Positions 4,897 to 25,311 of a DNA stretch of 31,220 nucleotides are shown here, one piece after another (position 1 is the first letter of the stretch; each line of letters begins with the position of its first letter). The notes beneath the pieces were generated by a model. That model was not told the origin of the DNA and ran no database searches. It worked only from the letters and a program-made list of their open reading frames with translations. Position numbers and translations under genes: made by a program. The stretch lies in the IMG/VR virus record IMGVR_UViG_3300003324_000946, positions 1 through 31,220 of that record. The stretch is one strand, 5' to 3'. Source of the DNA: a virus.

Positions 4897-6519
4897 TTAA
4901 CTAGCCGGTCCCTGAGTTTGCACCCCGCTGGTGTCAGTGAGGGTCTGAGTGGTAACAACAGTCGTGTTGTTATCGGCAAAAGTCTTAAGTGTCGTTGTCC
5001 CTGTATCGTAGACCGCCTTTTTGTAGAAACGTCTCCACAACTGAACAATCATTTCCCTAAAGGAAGACGCTACCGTGGAAGGAGCAGTAACCGGGATGCT
5101 GTCCAGGCCAGTGCTCGACAGAGCGTAGCCGGTCTTGTCGTTTACCGTCCCGGCCGTCACTTGACCGCTGGAAAGGCTCACCTGATTAGCTCCCGTTCCA
5201 CTACTCACCTTCATGATGTCACCAGGAACCGCCCGAGTTGATACTTGGGCATCCAGATTAGTTCCGACGATATATCCGGCCTGACCACTACTGTAGCTAC
5301 CTGGCAATGTCGTTGTCCACGGATCGGAGCCTCCGCTGCTAGAATCAACCGCAGCAATGCGGTAGAAATTACCATTCGATGGGTTGCCTTGACCAAAGGC
5401 ACTATCAATAGTTGCAATTTTTGTAGTACCATTGTAAGCAGTAATTGTTCTGTATTCCGTGTCATTCGATCCGGTTGGCGTCCAGGCTATAATATAACCA
5501 TCATACACATTGTTAACGCTGCTTGCCGCATTAGCCAGTTTTACCGATGTCCCAGACGAGCCAGCTTGGAATTGACCACTTGTAACGAAATTGGCAACTC
5601 CTACCACGTTGCCGAAAACATTTCCAGAAACATTGCCGTTCAGATTACCAGCGACATTTCCCGCAACGCTTCCAACACTTCCAGTAACGCTTCCAACAGA
5701 GCCAGAAATACTCGTTACAGGCAAGCTATTGCCAACAATGTAACCAGCTTGACCGGAGCTATAGCTGCCAGGCAGAGAAGTAGCCCATGGATCACCACCA
5801 TCGCCAAGGGCCGTTACCTCAAGGCTGGAATCAAGTTTCGGCAAGGTGGTCCCGTAAATGTACCAGGCGTCACCGCCGGACGGAGTTATCGTGAAATCCC
5901 TGTCAACAGTTAGATCCCAGGTTGCTCCGCCAAACGAGGCAGCTGTGATTGTCCGGACCTGTTTTCCGCTCGCGTCAACAATTTCAAGGGCCATGCCGAC
6001 CATGTCCGTATTGCCAACACCGCTGCTGCTGATGGTTACGGTGTTGGTTGTTCCACTTCCGGAAAGGCTTCCCGATAAGATCAAAGTGCCATACAACTTT
6101 TGTACGGTGCCTTGAACGTCTCCCGTGACACCGCCAACGGTGCCGACAACATTACCGCCGACGTTACCCGTCACGCTCGCAACGCTGCCGACAACATTAC
6201 CGCCGACGTTACCCGTCACGCTACCAACAGTTCCGCAGGATGTCACAGAGCCACCAGGTAGATCGGGGACGACTTGATCTAACCATGTGTCTGGAATGCC
6301 ACTCCCAGCATTCAAGTAGTAAGCCAGACTGCCCAGAGTGCTTGTATCGGTTGAGTTTAAGGCCATCAAATACCAGCCGTTGCTGATCTCACTGAAACTG
6401 CCAGAGAGCAAGTTGAAGCTGCCGCCATTCTGGCTGATCAGAACGGTCGGAGACAACCCGGTGGCTCCCAGGTAGATCGGCCGATTGAAGCTGGTGCTTT
6501 GCGGAATTAAGAGTGCCAT
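4897..6519 (-). CDS. Tail fibre-like virion protein with glycine/asparagine/valine repeats
   Basis: 540 residues. ATG at 6519 with AGGGG close upstream. The N-terminal domain (about 1-90) is followed by tandem repeats of the type GNVGGNVVGSV (about 95-140 and again about 280-310). A roughly 150-residue module occurs twice: a beta domain ending in a tyrosine-rich strand, then DPWxTxLPGSYSSGQAGYIVG. The C-terminus (LWRRFYKKAVYDTGTT, then DTSG) resembles the tail ends of many phage fibre-like proteins. Low-complexity GNV repeats of this kind form extended beta-helical shafts in fibres. It heads the structural-gene transcript, behind a late-promoter candidate. Exact position in the virion is not determinable from sequence alone. 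Confidence 0.75.
   Translation of the reverse strand: MALLIPQSTSFNRPIYLGATGLSPTVLISQNGGSFNLLSGSFSEISNGWYLMALNSTDTSTLGSLAYYLNAGSGIPDTWLDQVVPDLPGGSVTSCGTVGSVTGNVGGNVVGSVASVTGNVGGNVVGTVGGVTGDVQGTVQKLYGTLILSGSLSGSGTTNTVTISSSGVGNTDMVGMALEIVDASGKQVRTITAASFGGATWDLTVDRDFTITPSGGDAWYIYGTTLPKLDSSLEVTALGDGGDPWATSLPGSYSSGQAGYIVGNSLPVTSISGSVGSVTGSVGSVAGNVAGNLNGNVSGNVFGNVVGVANFVTSGQFQAGSSGTSVKLANAASSVNNVYDGYIIAWTPTGSNDTEYRTITAYNGTTKIATIDSAFGQGNPSNGNFYRIAAVDSSSGGSDPWTTTLPGSYSSGQAGYIVGTNLDAQVSTRAVPGDIMKVSSGTGANQVSLSSGQVTAGTVNDKTGYALSSTGLDSIPVTAPSTVASSFREMIVQLWRRFYKKAVYDTGTTTLKTFADNNTTVVTTQTLTDTSGVQTQGPAS
6141..6222. repeat. 45-bp tandem repeat inside the fibre gene
   Basis: A 37-base segment beginning TGCCGACAACATTACC occurs identically at 6141-6177 and 6186-6222, a period of 45 bases (15 codons). 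It encodes the GSVTGNVGGNVV repeat. Nucleotide identity, not only protein similarity, implies recent slippage or recombination, and such repeats let fibre length vary. Confidence 0.85.
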
Positions 6520-21512: not shown

Positions 21513-22052
21513 TTACTTCGCACCGTCCCCGCCCTTGACCGGGCGGAATCGGACCTGGAGCCTCTTCTCGTTAAACTTGGGCGGCGACTCAGGGGTGGCA
21601 ACATCCTTGACTGCCTCTGTAATATTGGCAATCACCTGGAAGCCCTGGTCCTTGAACATGATTTCTCGCTTGGAAAAAACACACGTCACCTGCACGCTTC
21701 GCCCTTCGGCGATGAATTTCTTCAGCGAGGCGATCTTGGTGCCTAGGTCGTGCTGGCCGATGACCGGGCGGACCTGGATTTCCTTCATCTTGACGTGCGT
21801 CTGGTTCTTGATCTGCTGCTTCTTGGCCTTGCTTTGCTCAAACCTCCACCTGCCGTAGTCACGGATGTCGCAAACCGGCGGGGCGGCATGTGGGGCGATC
21901 TCGACCAAGTCGAGGCCGGCGTCCATTGCCTTTTGCTGAGCCTCCCGCAGGGGCATGATTCCCAGGGCCTGACCGTCCATAGTGACCCGAACCACCGGGG
22001 CAGTGATCGCACGGTTCACGCGAATACGCTGCTCGCGAGATTGAGCTTTAAT
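21513..22052 (-). CDS. infC: Translation initiation factor IF-3, with an apparent AUU start codon
   Basis: 179 residues if begun at ATT (22052-22050). IF-3 binds the 30S subunit, blocks 50S joining and rejects non-canonical start codons. Both domains are present: N-domain (RVNRAITAPVVRV, GIMPLREAQQKAMDAGLDLV, DYGRWRFEQSKAKKQQ) and C-domain (KEIQVRPVIGQHDLGTKI, FIAEGRSVQVTCVFSKREI). The usual annotation would start at GTG 22019, but that removes the conserved SREQRIRVN lead-in and has no ribosome site. The ATT is in frame, has AAAGGAG with a seven-base spacer, and an in-frame stop (TAG) lies just upstream with no ATG, GTG or TTG between. AUU is the start codon of Escherichia coli infC and is the basis of its autoregulation. 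The upstream stop codon TAA overlaps the ATT. Confidence 0.9.
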   Translation of the reverse strand: MKAQSREQRIRVNRAITAPVVRVTMDGQALGIMPLREAQQKAMDAGLDLVEIAPHAAPPVCDIRDYGRWRFEQSKAKKQQIKNQTHVKMKEIQVRPVIGQHDLGTKIASLKKFIAEGRSVQVTCVFSKREIMFKDQGFQVIANITEAVKDVATPESPPKFNEKRLQVRFRPVKGGDGAK

Positions 22053-22356
22053 TGAAGTTCTCCTTTTCTACTATGTCTGGTTCGACGTATCGGAACATCG
22101 GACTTGTACCCAAAGACCAGGCAACACGCAAGGTATCCTCCGGCGGCACAACGGCTTCAAAGACCCCGTAGTGGAAAGTTTCGTACTCGATCTTGCACCC
22201 GGCTTTCACGAGGGCGTTGTACGCCGTCTTGTGTGCCACCCCACGCCTCAAAGCGACGTGAAGTCTACCGGGGCGGTAAGTGATGTGTTTTCCTTTCCAC
22301 AAAGCCTCACGAAGAGGCTGTTCCGTTGTTTCGCTTGCGGCAATTGGAATCGCCAT
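22048..22356 (-). CDS. Stand-alone protein resembling a subtilase propeptide (I9/fervidolysin-prodomain type)
   Basis: 102 residues, ATG at 22356; the nearest AGGA is far (about 14 bases). After a variable start (MAIPIAASETTEQPLREALW), residues about 28-95 follow the pattern of S8-peptidase prodomains: LHVALRRGV, a helix (AYNALVKAGCKIEY), FHYGVFEAVVPPED, a second helix (LRVAWSLGTSP), then FRYVEPDIV, where the VEPD ending is typical of the prodomain just before the mature protease. No protease domain follows: the gene stops and infC begins at the overlapping ATT. A free prodomain could fold a phage protease in trans or inhibit a host subtilase. The call rests on pattern recognition. Confidence 0.55.
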   Translation of the reverse strand: MAIPIAASETTEQPLREALWKGKHITYRPGRLHVALRRGVAHKTAYNALVKAGCKIEYETFHYGVFEAVVPPEDTLRVAWSLGTSPMFRYVEPDIVEKENFN

Positions 22357-22520
22357 TCAGTCAAACCGTTCCTGAAAACTTACGTAAACCTAGAAGGTAC
22401 AAAACCACCCAGATTTCCCGTTCCATTCCTGCTGCACACGAGACAGTTTCACCCAAGGTACGCCCTCAAGCCAGAGCCATCTCTTCTTCGCAGGCATTTA
22501 TCGTTTCCGTCGAACTGACG
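22357..22520 (-). ncRNA. Possible omega RNA/right end of the TnpB element
   Basis: TnpB proteins use a guide RNA made from the 3' end of their gene and the transposon right end. Here 109 bases lie between the tnpB stop and the next gene, with a segment AGCAGGAATGGGAACGGG on the minus strand resembling the GAAGCAGGAA stretch often seen after tnpB, and the palindrome TTACGTAA at about 22381-22388. The exact scaffold/guide boundary cannot be drawn by eye. Confidence 0.3.
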
Positions 22521-23665
22521 GCAACGTGTTCTAAATTACAACTTGCGTTAAAATCCCTGTCGTGGTGCGTCCCACAACCTTCACAGACCCATTCTCGGTC
22601 AGCCAATCTCAGGTTCTGATTGATTTCCCCACATACGCTACACGTCTTGCTGGAAGCAAAAAACCTGTCTGCCACGGCGATCCGGCAGTTGTACCAGACG
22701 CCCTTGTAGGTCATCTGACGCCGCCACTCGCCTAGACCAAGATCGGCAATGGCCCGTGCCAAACACCTGTTCTTGAGCATACCCGCCACATTTAAGTCCT
22801 CGATGCCGATAGCTGACTTGGTTTTCGTCAAGCAGGTCGTCATCTTGTGAATAACGTCTTGTCGGATATTGCTCACTTTCAGGTACAAACGAGCCACACG
22901 GTCTGCTGCCTTCCTTCTGTTCCTACTGCCTTTGACCTTACGGGCGACCGCTCGTTGTAGCCGCCGTAGTTTCCTAAGTCGTGAGGAGAGTGCCTTCGGG
23001 TTCTGGTACACCGTGCCGTCCGAGACGGTCGCCAGTGTCTTGATGCCCAAGTCCACGCCCACGACTTCCTTCTTGTCCTTGACGCCGGTGTAGGTCGGCA
23101 TGTCCATCTCCACCAGCACGCTCACGAACCACCGACCAGCCCTCTCGCTAACCGTGGCATTAAGTATCTTGGCGTCGGTCGGCAAGTAGTCCTTCTCCTT
23201 GAGTCTGATCGTACCGAGCCGTGGCAACTGGATGCTGTTGTTGAAAACAACAATTGTACCATACAGACGGAAACTGCCAATCCCACTTTTCTTGCTCTTG
23301 AACTTCGGGAAGCCCATGCGTCTCTTCGTTTTGCGGCTATTCCAGAAGTTGCTGAACGCATTGTCTAAGTTTCGCAGGGCTTCTTGTGAACTGCACTTAC
23401 TGACCTCATACATCCACGGCACTTCAGTCTTTTTCAAGACAGTCAAACGACGATGCAGTTCAATGGCATTGGGAATTTTGGTCTTTACCTCCATCGCCAT
23501 CTTCTTCTGGCTCAAGCCCCAATTATATGCCCAGCGTGCTGCTCCCGCATTTTTCAGCAAGAGAGTGCGTTGTTTGTTGTTGGGCCTGATCTCAGTTTTG
23601 TAGCCTCGTTGTATCGGCAATTGTTCTTTTGCCTCCAACTCCGACAACTTACAATCATTCTGCAT
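22466..23665 (-). CDS. tnpB: TnpB (IS200/IS605-type RNA-guided nuclease)
   Basis: 399 residues from the ATG at 23665 (a TTG at 23674, nearer the AGAGGAG site, would add three residues). N-terminal OrfB helix-turn-helix region (YKTEIRPNNKQRTLLLKNAG, ARWAYNWGL) is intact. The RuvC parts are complete: VGVDLGIKT (Asp at about 205), IGIEDLNV (Glu at about 289) and HDRDFNASCN (Asp at about 371), with the CSVC/CEGC zinc ribbon between. It should be an active omega-RNA-guided DNA nuclease. No tnpA is present in this window. The ATG lies five bases after the decarboxylase stop, in the same strand, so it is either a tight insertion or an operonic, perhaps domesticated, gene. Confidence 0.95.
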   Translation of the reverse strand: MQNDCKLSELEAKEQLPIQRGYKTEIRPNNKQRTLLLKNAGAARWAYNWGLSQKKMAMEVKTKIPNAIELHRRLTVLKKTEVPWMYEVSKCSSQEALRNLDNAFSNFWNSRKTKRRMGFPKFKSKKSGIGSFRLYGTIVVFNNSIQLPRLGTIRLKEKDYLPTDAKILNATVSERAGRWFVSVLVEMDMPTYTGVKDKKEVVGVDLGIKTLATVSDGTVYQNPKALSSRLRKLRRLQRAVARKVKGSRNRRKAADRVARLYLKVSNIRQDVIHKMTTCLTKTKSAIGIEDLNVAGMLKNRCLARAIADLGLGEWRRQMTYKGVWYNCRIAVADRFFASSKTCSVCGEINQNLRLADREWVCEGCGTHHDRDFNASCNLEHVAVSSTETINACEEEMALA

Positions 23666-23670
23666 CTTGG

Positions 23671-25311
23671 TCAAACTCTCCTCTTGAGATTATGCCCAAA
23701 ACGCTTCAGGGCAGGGCTCGTGTCGTTTTTCGACAGCTTCACGTTGACGATGGCGAGGCTGTCGGTGGCCATGACCTCCGCGATGACTTTCTCCATGTCA
23801 CCCTCCGTCTCGATGACGTAGCCCTTCCCGCCGCCGATGACGCCAGGAATGCTCTCGAAAGCCCACTCCTGTATATCGTTCCAGGGTCCTTCGAGGATTA
23901 ACCGCTCCGTCGTGTACCCCTGGTTGTTTAGGACAAAAATCTTGGGGGCCTTTGCCTTGCCGGACTTCCAGCGACGGACCAGTGTGGAGCACTCCATGCC
24001 GGTCATCTGAAACGCTCCGTCTCCCACAAACACCAGAGGAGTCAGATCCGGCCTGGCCGTGGTGACACCGAGGCTTCCTGGAACGGCAAACCCCATTGAC
24101 GTGTAAAACGCCGGCGACAGGAAATTCATCGAAGAATGCATCGTCAAGTCCGCCGCACCGAAGAGGCTTTCCCCCACGTCCGCAACGATGGCGGTCTTGT
24201 CGGTGATGATCGAGTCGATCTTCTCGAAGAAGCGAGCCACCGTGATGCGAGCATTCTGGTGGGCCTCAAACTGCGGCCGGTCGCGATCCTCGATGGCAAG
24301 AACCGTGCCGCGTGGCCGAATGTCCGTCACCAAGAGGCCGTTAACAAGCTCGCTGAAAACGACGTTCTGGTAGAAGCTGTTCCTGATTTGACAGGATTCG
24401 CTCGTGGCCAGTACAACCTTCCTCTTGCCGATCTTCAGGGGCATGAAACCGAGGTTCACGTCGGTCTGCATTACCCCCAGCATGATGAGGCAGTCGCTCT
24501 CGTCCACGCGAGCCGCAACCTCGCCCTTGGACATGGAGCCGCAGTAGACGCCGAGGCTGAGCGGGTGTCGCTCGTTGAAAACACTTTTGCCCAGCAGGCT
24601 TGTGGCCACCGGAATGCCAGTCTTTTCGGCCAACTTCTTGAGCTTGTCCTGGAGGCCGAACCGAGCGATTTCCTCTCCGGCCAAGATCACCGGTAAGCGG
24701 CTGGAGTTAATGTACTCGGCCACTTCGCCAAGAACTTCTTCCAGAACCTCCTCATCAGAGGTCGGCGGTTTCGGGGTGCCTTGATCGAGTGCGTAGCTGA
24801 TAGGCTTGTCGATCAAGTCGCGGGGGACCTCAATGTAGATAGGCCGCTTGTAGGTCTTCAGTGCTTCCAGTACGCGGTCGATCTCGTAAGCGGCCCGGTT
24901 GGTGTCGCGGAGGACCGTATTGGCACAGGTGACGTTGGAAAAAACCCTGTGCTGGCACTCGAAACTGCGGACCATGTGGTGCAGCAACAGGCCCTCTTGT
25001 CGCTCCTTGATGCCGGGACTGCCGGAGAGGAATACGACGGGGGACTTCTCGGCCTCAGCCTGGGCTACCGCATTAAAGATGGAAAATCCACCGACACAGT
25101 AGGTAAAGACGGCCAAGCCGATCCCGTTAACACGAGCATAGGCATCGGCGGCGTAGCCGGCACAGAGCTCGCTTGTCGTCCCGATCAACTCGATCTGAGA
25201 ATTCTGGAAGTGCTTATGCAGCGGCAGGGAGTAATCCCCGGGGACGGCAAAGCCATGCTTGATGCCAGCCCTGTAAAGACGATCAGTAATGTGCTGTCCT
25301 AGTGTTGGCAT
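23671..25311 (-). CDS. Thiamine-diphosphate 2-keto-acid decarboxylase (pyruvate/indolepyruvate decarboxylase family)
   Basis: 546 residues, full length for the family; ATG at 25311. It should convert a 2-keto acid to an aldehyde and CO2. All residues known to be catalytic in yeast and Zymomonas pyruvate decarboxylase are present: Asp26 in VPGDYSLPL, Glu48 in TTSELCAGYAADAYAR, the His111-His112 pair in LLHHMVRSF and Glu469 in NNQGYTTER. The ThDP/Mg motif runs from GDGAFQMTG (430) to NN (462-463). The Asn-Glu-Leu-Asn of the family is changed to SELC. The gene ends cleanly (LKRRV) next to tnpB. Substrate (pyruvate, phenylpyruvate, indolepyruvate or branched) cannot be told from sequence alone. 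Such an enzyme in a phage is very unusual. Confidence 0.93.
   Translation of the reverse strand: MPTLGQHITDRLYRAGIKHGFAVPGDYSLPLHKHFQNSQIELIGTTSELCAGYAADAYARVNGIGLAVFTYCVGGFSIFNAVAQAEAEKSPVVFLSGSPGIKERQEGLLLHHMVRSFECQHRVFSNVTCANTVLRDTNRAAYEIDRVLEALKTYKRPIYIEVPRDLIDKPISYALDQGTPKPPTSDEEVLEEVLGEVAEYINSSRLPVILAGEEIARFGLQDKLKKLAEKTGIPVATSLLGKSVFNERHPLSLGVYCGSMSKGEVAARVDESDCLIMLGVMQTDVNLGFMPLKIGKRKVVLATSESCQIRNSFYQNVVFSELVNGLLVTDIRPRGTVLAIEDRDRPQFEAHQNARITVARFFEKIDSIITDKTAIVADVGESLFGAADLTMHSSMNFLSPAFYTSMGFAVPGSLGVTTARPDLTPLVFVGDGAFQMTGMECSTLVRRWKSGKAKAPKIFVLNNQGYTTERLILEGPWNDIQEWAFESIPGVIGGGKGYVIETEGDMEKVIAEVMATDSLAIVNVKLSKNDTSPALKRFGHNLKRRV

Follow-up and report, generated by a model that had tools for sequence, protein, structure and literature searches.

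In E. coli, the infC gene, which encodes translation initiation factor IF-3, has AUU as its start codon, and its autoregulation operates through this codon (Butler 1986, 1987; Sacerdot 1996, cited in PMC5472188; PMC4611024). AUU, AUC, and AUA starts are repressed by IF-3, while AUG, GUG, and UUG starts are not (PMC4611024, PMC5472188). IF-3 has also been named as a translation-takeover gene of huge phages (PMC7162821, PMC7824862). Both the occurrence of IF-3 in huge phages and the AUU autoregulation of infC are already known, and our search, which covered the open-access literature, found no report on the start codons of phage infC genes.

The infC gene described here lies in a 31-kb virus record of 31,220 nucleotides, referred to as the window, with the genome size of the phage taken from its relatives. 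The following features, all on the minus strand, are used throughout:

21513-22052, minus strand: phage infC, predicted to encode an IF-3 of 179 amino acids, from ATT 22052 to TAA 21515-21513 (Pfam, NCBIfam, PHROG)
22050-22052, minus strand: proposed AUU start codon, 7 nt after GGAG, with ATT in the same slot in the relatives L181, L185, and LR756511
22060-22067, minus strand: Shine-Dalgarno AAAAGGAG, anti-Shine-Dalgarno duplex of -8.7 kcal/mol
22068-22073, minus strand: paired in-frame stops TAG TAG, the upstream bound of the IF-3 frame
22023-22025, minus strand: second in-frame ATT, a rival start without a Shine-Dalgarno (duplex -2.2 kcal/mol)
22017-22019, minus strand: GTG picked by gene callers, codon 12 of the AUU frame, without a Shine-Dalgarno (-2.2 kcal/mol at a spacing of 11)
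22048-22356, minus strand: upstream ORF of 102 amino acids, belonging to no known family, whose TAA (22050-22048) has one base in common with the ATT
22466-23674, minus strand: TnpB (IS605 OrfB), inserted between the TPP-dependent enzyme gene and the IF-3 gene
23671-25311, minus strand: TPP-dependent enzyme gene, the partner of IF-3 in related huge phages (synteny)

The predicted product of 22052-21513 is a two-domain IF-3 that scores above curated cut-offs, with Pfam IF3_N (4.5e-23; 81.6 bits against a cut-off of 26.9) and IF3_C (2.5e-21; 75.8 bits against 34.8) present in order, a score of 151 bits for the NCBIfam infC equivalog TIGR00168, whose cut-off is 60, and a match to PHROG 9787, 'translation initiation factor'. 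An exact-peptide search with the whole protein recovered no close relatives in viral or genome contigs. The bacterial gene order thrS-infC-rpmI-rplT, on which the AUU mechanism does not depend, is not found in the window, where no L20 or L35 gene lies nearby and the neighbors of IF-3 are the 102-amino acid ORF, TnpB, and the TPP enzyme. A scan of the window for RNA families and tRNAs found none, and there is therefore no known riboregulator in it; the predicted fold of the start region was no more stable than that of shuffled sequences (z 0.21). Elsewhere in the window, a 540-amino acid protein at 4897-6519 (minus strand) with GNVGGNVVGSV-type repeats and no family match has the appearance of a virion or fiber protein.

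The initial annotation had placed the start of this gene at an ATT with AAAGGAG seven bases before it and an in-frame stop further up, and all of its coordinates were borne out, the stop lying 18 nt upstream of ATT 22052. It had also called this ATT the sole possible start, overlooking the second in-frame ATT at 22025. Three near-cognate codons, ATT 22052, ATT 22025, and GTG 22019, lie between the upstream stop and the IF-3 domain, and of these ATT 22052 alone has a Shine-Dalgarno. The extended motif AAAGGAG-N4-10-ATTAA occurs once in the window with 0.01 occurrences expected, while AAGGAG-N5-8-ATT by itself is not rare (two occurrences, 0.9 expected), and for this reason the case for AUU is built on the reading frame, the relatives, and the lack of any other start that could be used. 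Judged from these features, the start codon of the window infC is most likely AUU, behind a Shine-Dalgarno at the usual spacing, which places the gene with those that start at AUU, AUC, or AUA. Of the conserved SREQRIRVN lead-in that had been proposed for the protein, the R-[IV]-N portion is broadly conserved and the SREQ portion is not.

Among annotated phages, the PhoH, TPP enzyme, and IF-3 proteins of the window are each closest to those of the 595-kb phage LR756511 (43-46% identity), in which the TPP gene immediately precedes IF-3 (LR756511.1 325975-328208), whereas in the window TnpB and the 102-amino acid ORF separate the two. A search with the TPP protein retrieved 16 more loci from IMG/VR (L181-L196), each with IF-3 downstream of the TPP gene; their contigs measure up to 511 kb. 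Taken together, the matches of the window and the TPP-IF-3 order in these loci indicate that the window is part of a genome from an established lineage of huge phages. The TPP tree joins the window with L181 as sisters (support 90/85); the L181 contig is 430 kb long. Among the 137 sequences of the IF-3 tree, the window groups with L181, L185, LR756511, and others in a phage clade (SH-aLRT 93, single-gene support being moderate at such depth), apart from all 52 bacterial sequences. Given this placement inside the phage clade, the window gene is not a fresh copy from a host, and the idea that AUU marks a recent host infC copy was rejected; it is also contradicted by the bacterial IF-3 sequences of the set, none of which exceeds 43-46% identity. 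The TPP-dependent enzyme gene is found upstream of IF-3 throughout the lineage (window 21513-25311, L181-L196, LR756511), and LR756511 has no TnpB where the window carries TnpB at 22466-23674.

In the window, L181, L185, and LR756511, ATT is the in-frame codon at a distance of 7 nt from GGAG. A clear case among the relatives is L185, whose TPP gene is 48% identical with the same synteny and whose infC leader reads AAAAGGAG-AATCATT-ATT, with no ATG, GTG, or TTG from the upstream stop to the conserved Asn. L181 reads GGAG-AATGACG-ATT, with further ATGs 1 nt and 22 nt after GGAG, the first of which is too close for normal initiation. LR756511 reads GGAG-ACTAGTT-ATT-TTC-ATG, and its ATG at 13 nt is possible as a start, since other surveyed phage infC genes use such spacing. 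In L038, L041, L046, L061, L063, L066, and L071, the infC ATG lies 12-13 nt past a strong Shine-Dalgarno and not about 7. With codon order shuffled within each leader, ATT at +7 in all four leaders has P = 3.7e-5, and the two clear cases, the window and L185, alone give P = 0.012 for the slot; these values are descriptive only, as the four leaders were picked after inspection. The infC genes of the remaining lineage members start with ATG, GTG, or TTG, and ATG is the start of the adjoining TPP gene in every lineage member in which this start can be aligned.

For a wider comparison of bacterial and phage infC genes, a single start caller, scoring anti-Shine-Dalgarno duplex and spacing and neutral as to codon, was applied to all. 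A Shine-Dalgarno-supported start was found in 62 of 68 dereplicated bacterial genes, and 56 of these 62 starts are ATT, ATC, or ATA. In phages, 31 of 77 dereplicated genes have a supported start, canonical in 21 of the 31. In five phage genes, no canonical start precedes the domain (L054 ATT, L075 ATT, L087 ATA, L064 CTG, and L074 CTG), and L079 (ATA) is similar to them; the viral status of L054, L064, and L074 is that given by IMG/VR. L075, L079, and L087 group in a single clade, in which the same infC start position is occupied by ATT, ATA, and ATA, respectively, and their phage neighbors include ribonucleotide reductase, clamp loader, and sigma factor genes. In the viral contigs L064 and L074, CTG is the sole near-canonical codon behind the Shine-Dalgarno and is expected to be another codon that IF-3 would reject. 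Phage infC genes have thus mostly turned canonical, while several separate lineages have kept or regained a non-canonical start. Since most phage infC genes, several lineage members included, start canonically, a phage IF-3 can be of use without the feedback, and the difference between bacterial infC, almost never canonical, and phage infC, mostly canonical, raises the testable question of when IF-3 feedback pays during infection. These phage counts leave out L007, L008, L012, L013, and L227, whose infC is bacterial by neighbors or tree. These five are deposited as phage or viral, have thrS, L35, and L20 as neighbors of infC, and would mislead surveys of phage IF-3.

We propose, with a probability of about 0.6, that the window gene, an infC of this huge-phage lineage, is translated from AUU 22052 and senses IF-3 activity. 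Since IF-3 rejects starts other than AUG, GUG, and UUG, a phage infC led by AUU would be repressed by any discriminating IF-3 in the cell. By the established biochemistry, rejection of the AUU start would scale with the amount of discriminating IF-3. Output of the phage gene would accordingly be high while there is little free IF-3 per 30S subunit, and would drop as IF-3 accumulates. In infection, the gene would act as a thermostat on host plus phage IF-3 activity, delivering IF-3 only when ribosomal initiation is short of it, and ribosomes finishing the upstream ORF at AUUAA may contribute coupled initiation. If AUU is used, the textbook translational feedback of infC is present in this phage, whose IF-3 supply would answer to the host factor. 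Three claims of the initial annotation bear on this model. Its premise that E. coli IF-3 represses AUU starts is established in the literature cited above. The retention of AUU is supported by the prevalence of AUU, AUC, and AUA in bacterial infC, the ATT in the slot of the nearest relatives, and the position in the phage clade. The further suggestion of a titration switch that reads total (host plus phage) IF-3 for translation takeover is a reasonable inference. A comparison of N-termini and start codons among related phage infC genes, also suggested there, came out divided, with the ATT slot in three relatives and canonical starts in the rest of the lineage.

One feature of the start was absent from the initial annotation: the last T of ATT 22052 is also the first base of the upstream TAA, forming the junction AUUAA, and the Shine-Dalgarno falls within the final codons of ORF 22356-22048. 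Because the AUU overlaps the upstream stop codon, translational coupling could dominate, and AUU might be used merely as a low-efficiency start, with termination-reinitiation at AUUAA keeping IF-3 at a fixed low level relative to the upstream gene and no feedback selected. Start-stop overlaps in E. coli couple genes, and reinitiation without a Shine-Dalgarno is also inhibited by IF3 (PMC2268962). Any canonical NTG at the ATT site would turn TAA into GAA and abolish the stop, and the T could thus be kept by the overlap alone. We regard this explanation as possible but doubtful, since the ATT of L181, L185, and LR756511 overlaps no stop codon, and the shared ATT is therefore not explicable by overlap alone. 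An AUU start would in any case still be sensitive to IF-3 unless the IF-3 is non-discriminating. Searches of Pfam, PHROGs, phages, and viral contigs gave no match to the upstream ORF, and with no detectable homologue this ORF may not be a real gene.

Initiation at or near GTG 22019, producing an IF-3 of 168 amino acids with the ATT incidental, would have the advantage of a canonical codon and would leave the IF-3 domain complete from Asn-13; in some bacterial IF-3s, only about five residues precede Ile-Asn. This start is nevertheless improbable, as it has no Shine-Dalgarno (-2.2 kcal/mol at a spacing of 11 vs -8.7 for ATT), L185 has no canonical start to use, and the protein would lose Arg-11, a conserved residue ahead of Asn; 77% of bacteria and 76-79% of phages have Arg at this place. 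Gene callers limited to ATG, GTG, and TTG truncate phage genes of this kind.

The sequence of the phage IF-3 bears on how it would read such a start. In E. coli IF-3, R25, R66, Y75, K110, R131, R133, R147, and R168 are implicated in binding to tRNA and the 30S subunit, with R66 presumably contacting the elbow of the initiator tRNA and mattering for fidelity. The window protein keeps R25, K110, and R133, has Y75 changed to F and R168 to K, and differs at R66 (D), R131 (S), and R147 (N). The site of R66 is K or R in 51 of 52 bacterial IF-3s and Asp in the window (codon 62, 21867-21869), and it is non-basic (D, E, Q, I, T, S, or H) in ten lineage members (the window, L181, L182, L185, L186, L187, L190, L192, L193, and L196), with E in L181 and Q in L185; that K/R seems to dominate here in other phages is in part an artefact of the search motif used for them, which required R, K, or D at this position. 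A non-basic residue may alter start-codon or tRNA discrimination, and because its R66-equivalent is Asp, the phage IF-3 may discriminate differently or less well. It is conceivable, though we think it very improbable, that the lineage keeps an IF-3-rejected infC start while its IF-3 has lost the R66-equivalent, in which case host and phage IF-3 would be opposed on AUU, the gene would be a switch and not a thermostat, and other non-canonical starts would possibly be opened. Also very improbable is an inverted control, in which host IF-3 first holds the AUU-led gene low and a weakly discriminating phage IF-3 then displaces it, so that AUU initiation rises in a self-reinforcing switch: the lost basic residue and the contact of the IF3 N-domain with the tRNA elbow during initiation (PMC5037330) are consistent with it, but LR756511 retains Arg, and a link between loss of R66 and the AUU start was rejected because L182, L186, L190, L192, L193, and L196 have lost the basic residue and start canonically.

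With translation from an IF-3-responsive AUU as the preferred reading, the locus can be set beside three known systems. The Streptomyces sigR gene, whose GTC start is repressed by IF3 (PMC5472188), makes the same use of IF-3 discrimination as regulation; unlike the window gene, it is not an IF-3 gene, is bacterial, and has been shown experimentally. The IF-3 genes of huge and jumbo phages (Al-Shayeb 2020, PMC7162821; PMC7824862) belong to the same family and the same kind of phage as the window, and LR756511, from the Al-Shayeb 2020 set (PMC7162821), shares its TPP-IF3 synteny; the infC genes of the cultured relatives 121Q, Phosso, Atu_ph07, and CBB start with ATG or GTG. Compared with E. coli infC, the window gene is carried by a phage, lies beside a TPP-enzyme gene and not in thrS-rpmI-rplT, has an AUU that overlaps an upstream stop, encodes Asp at the R66-equivalent, and would operate in a cell that also contains the host IF-3. 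As in E. coli infC, it is an IF-3 gene with a probable AUU start about 7 nt behind a good Shine-Dalgarno, a codon that the E. coli product rejects.
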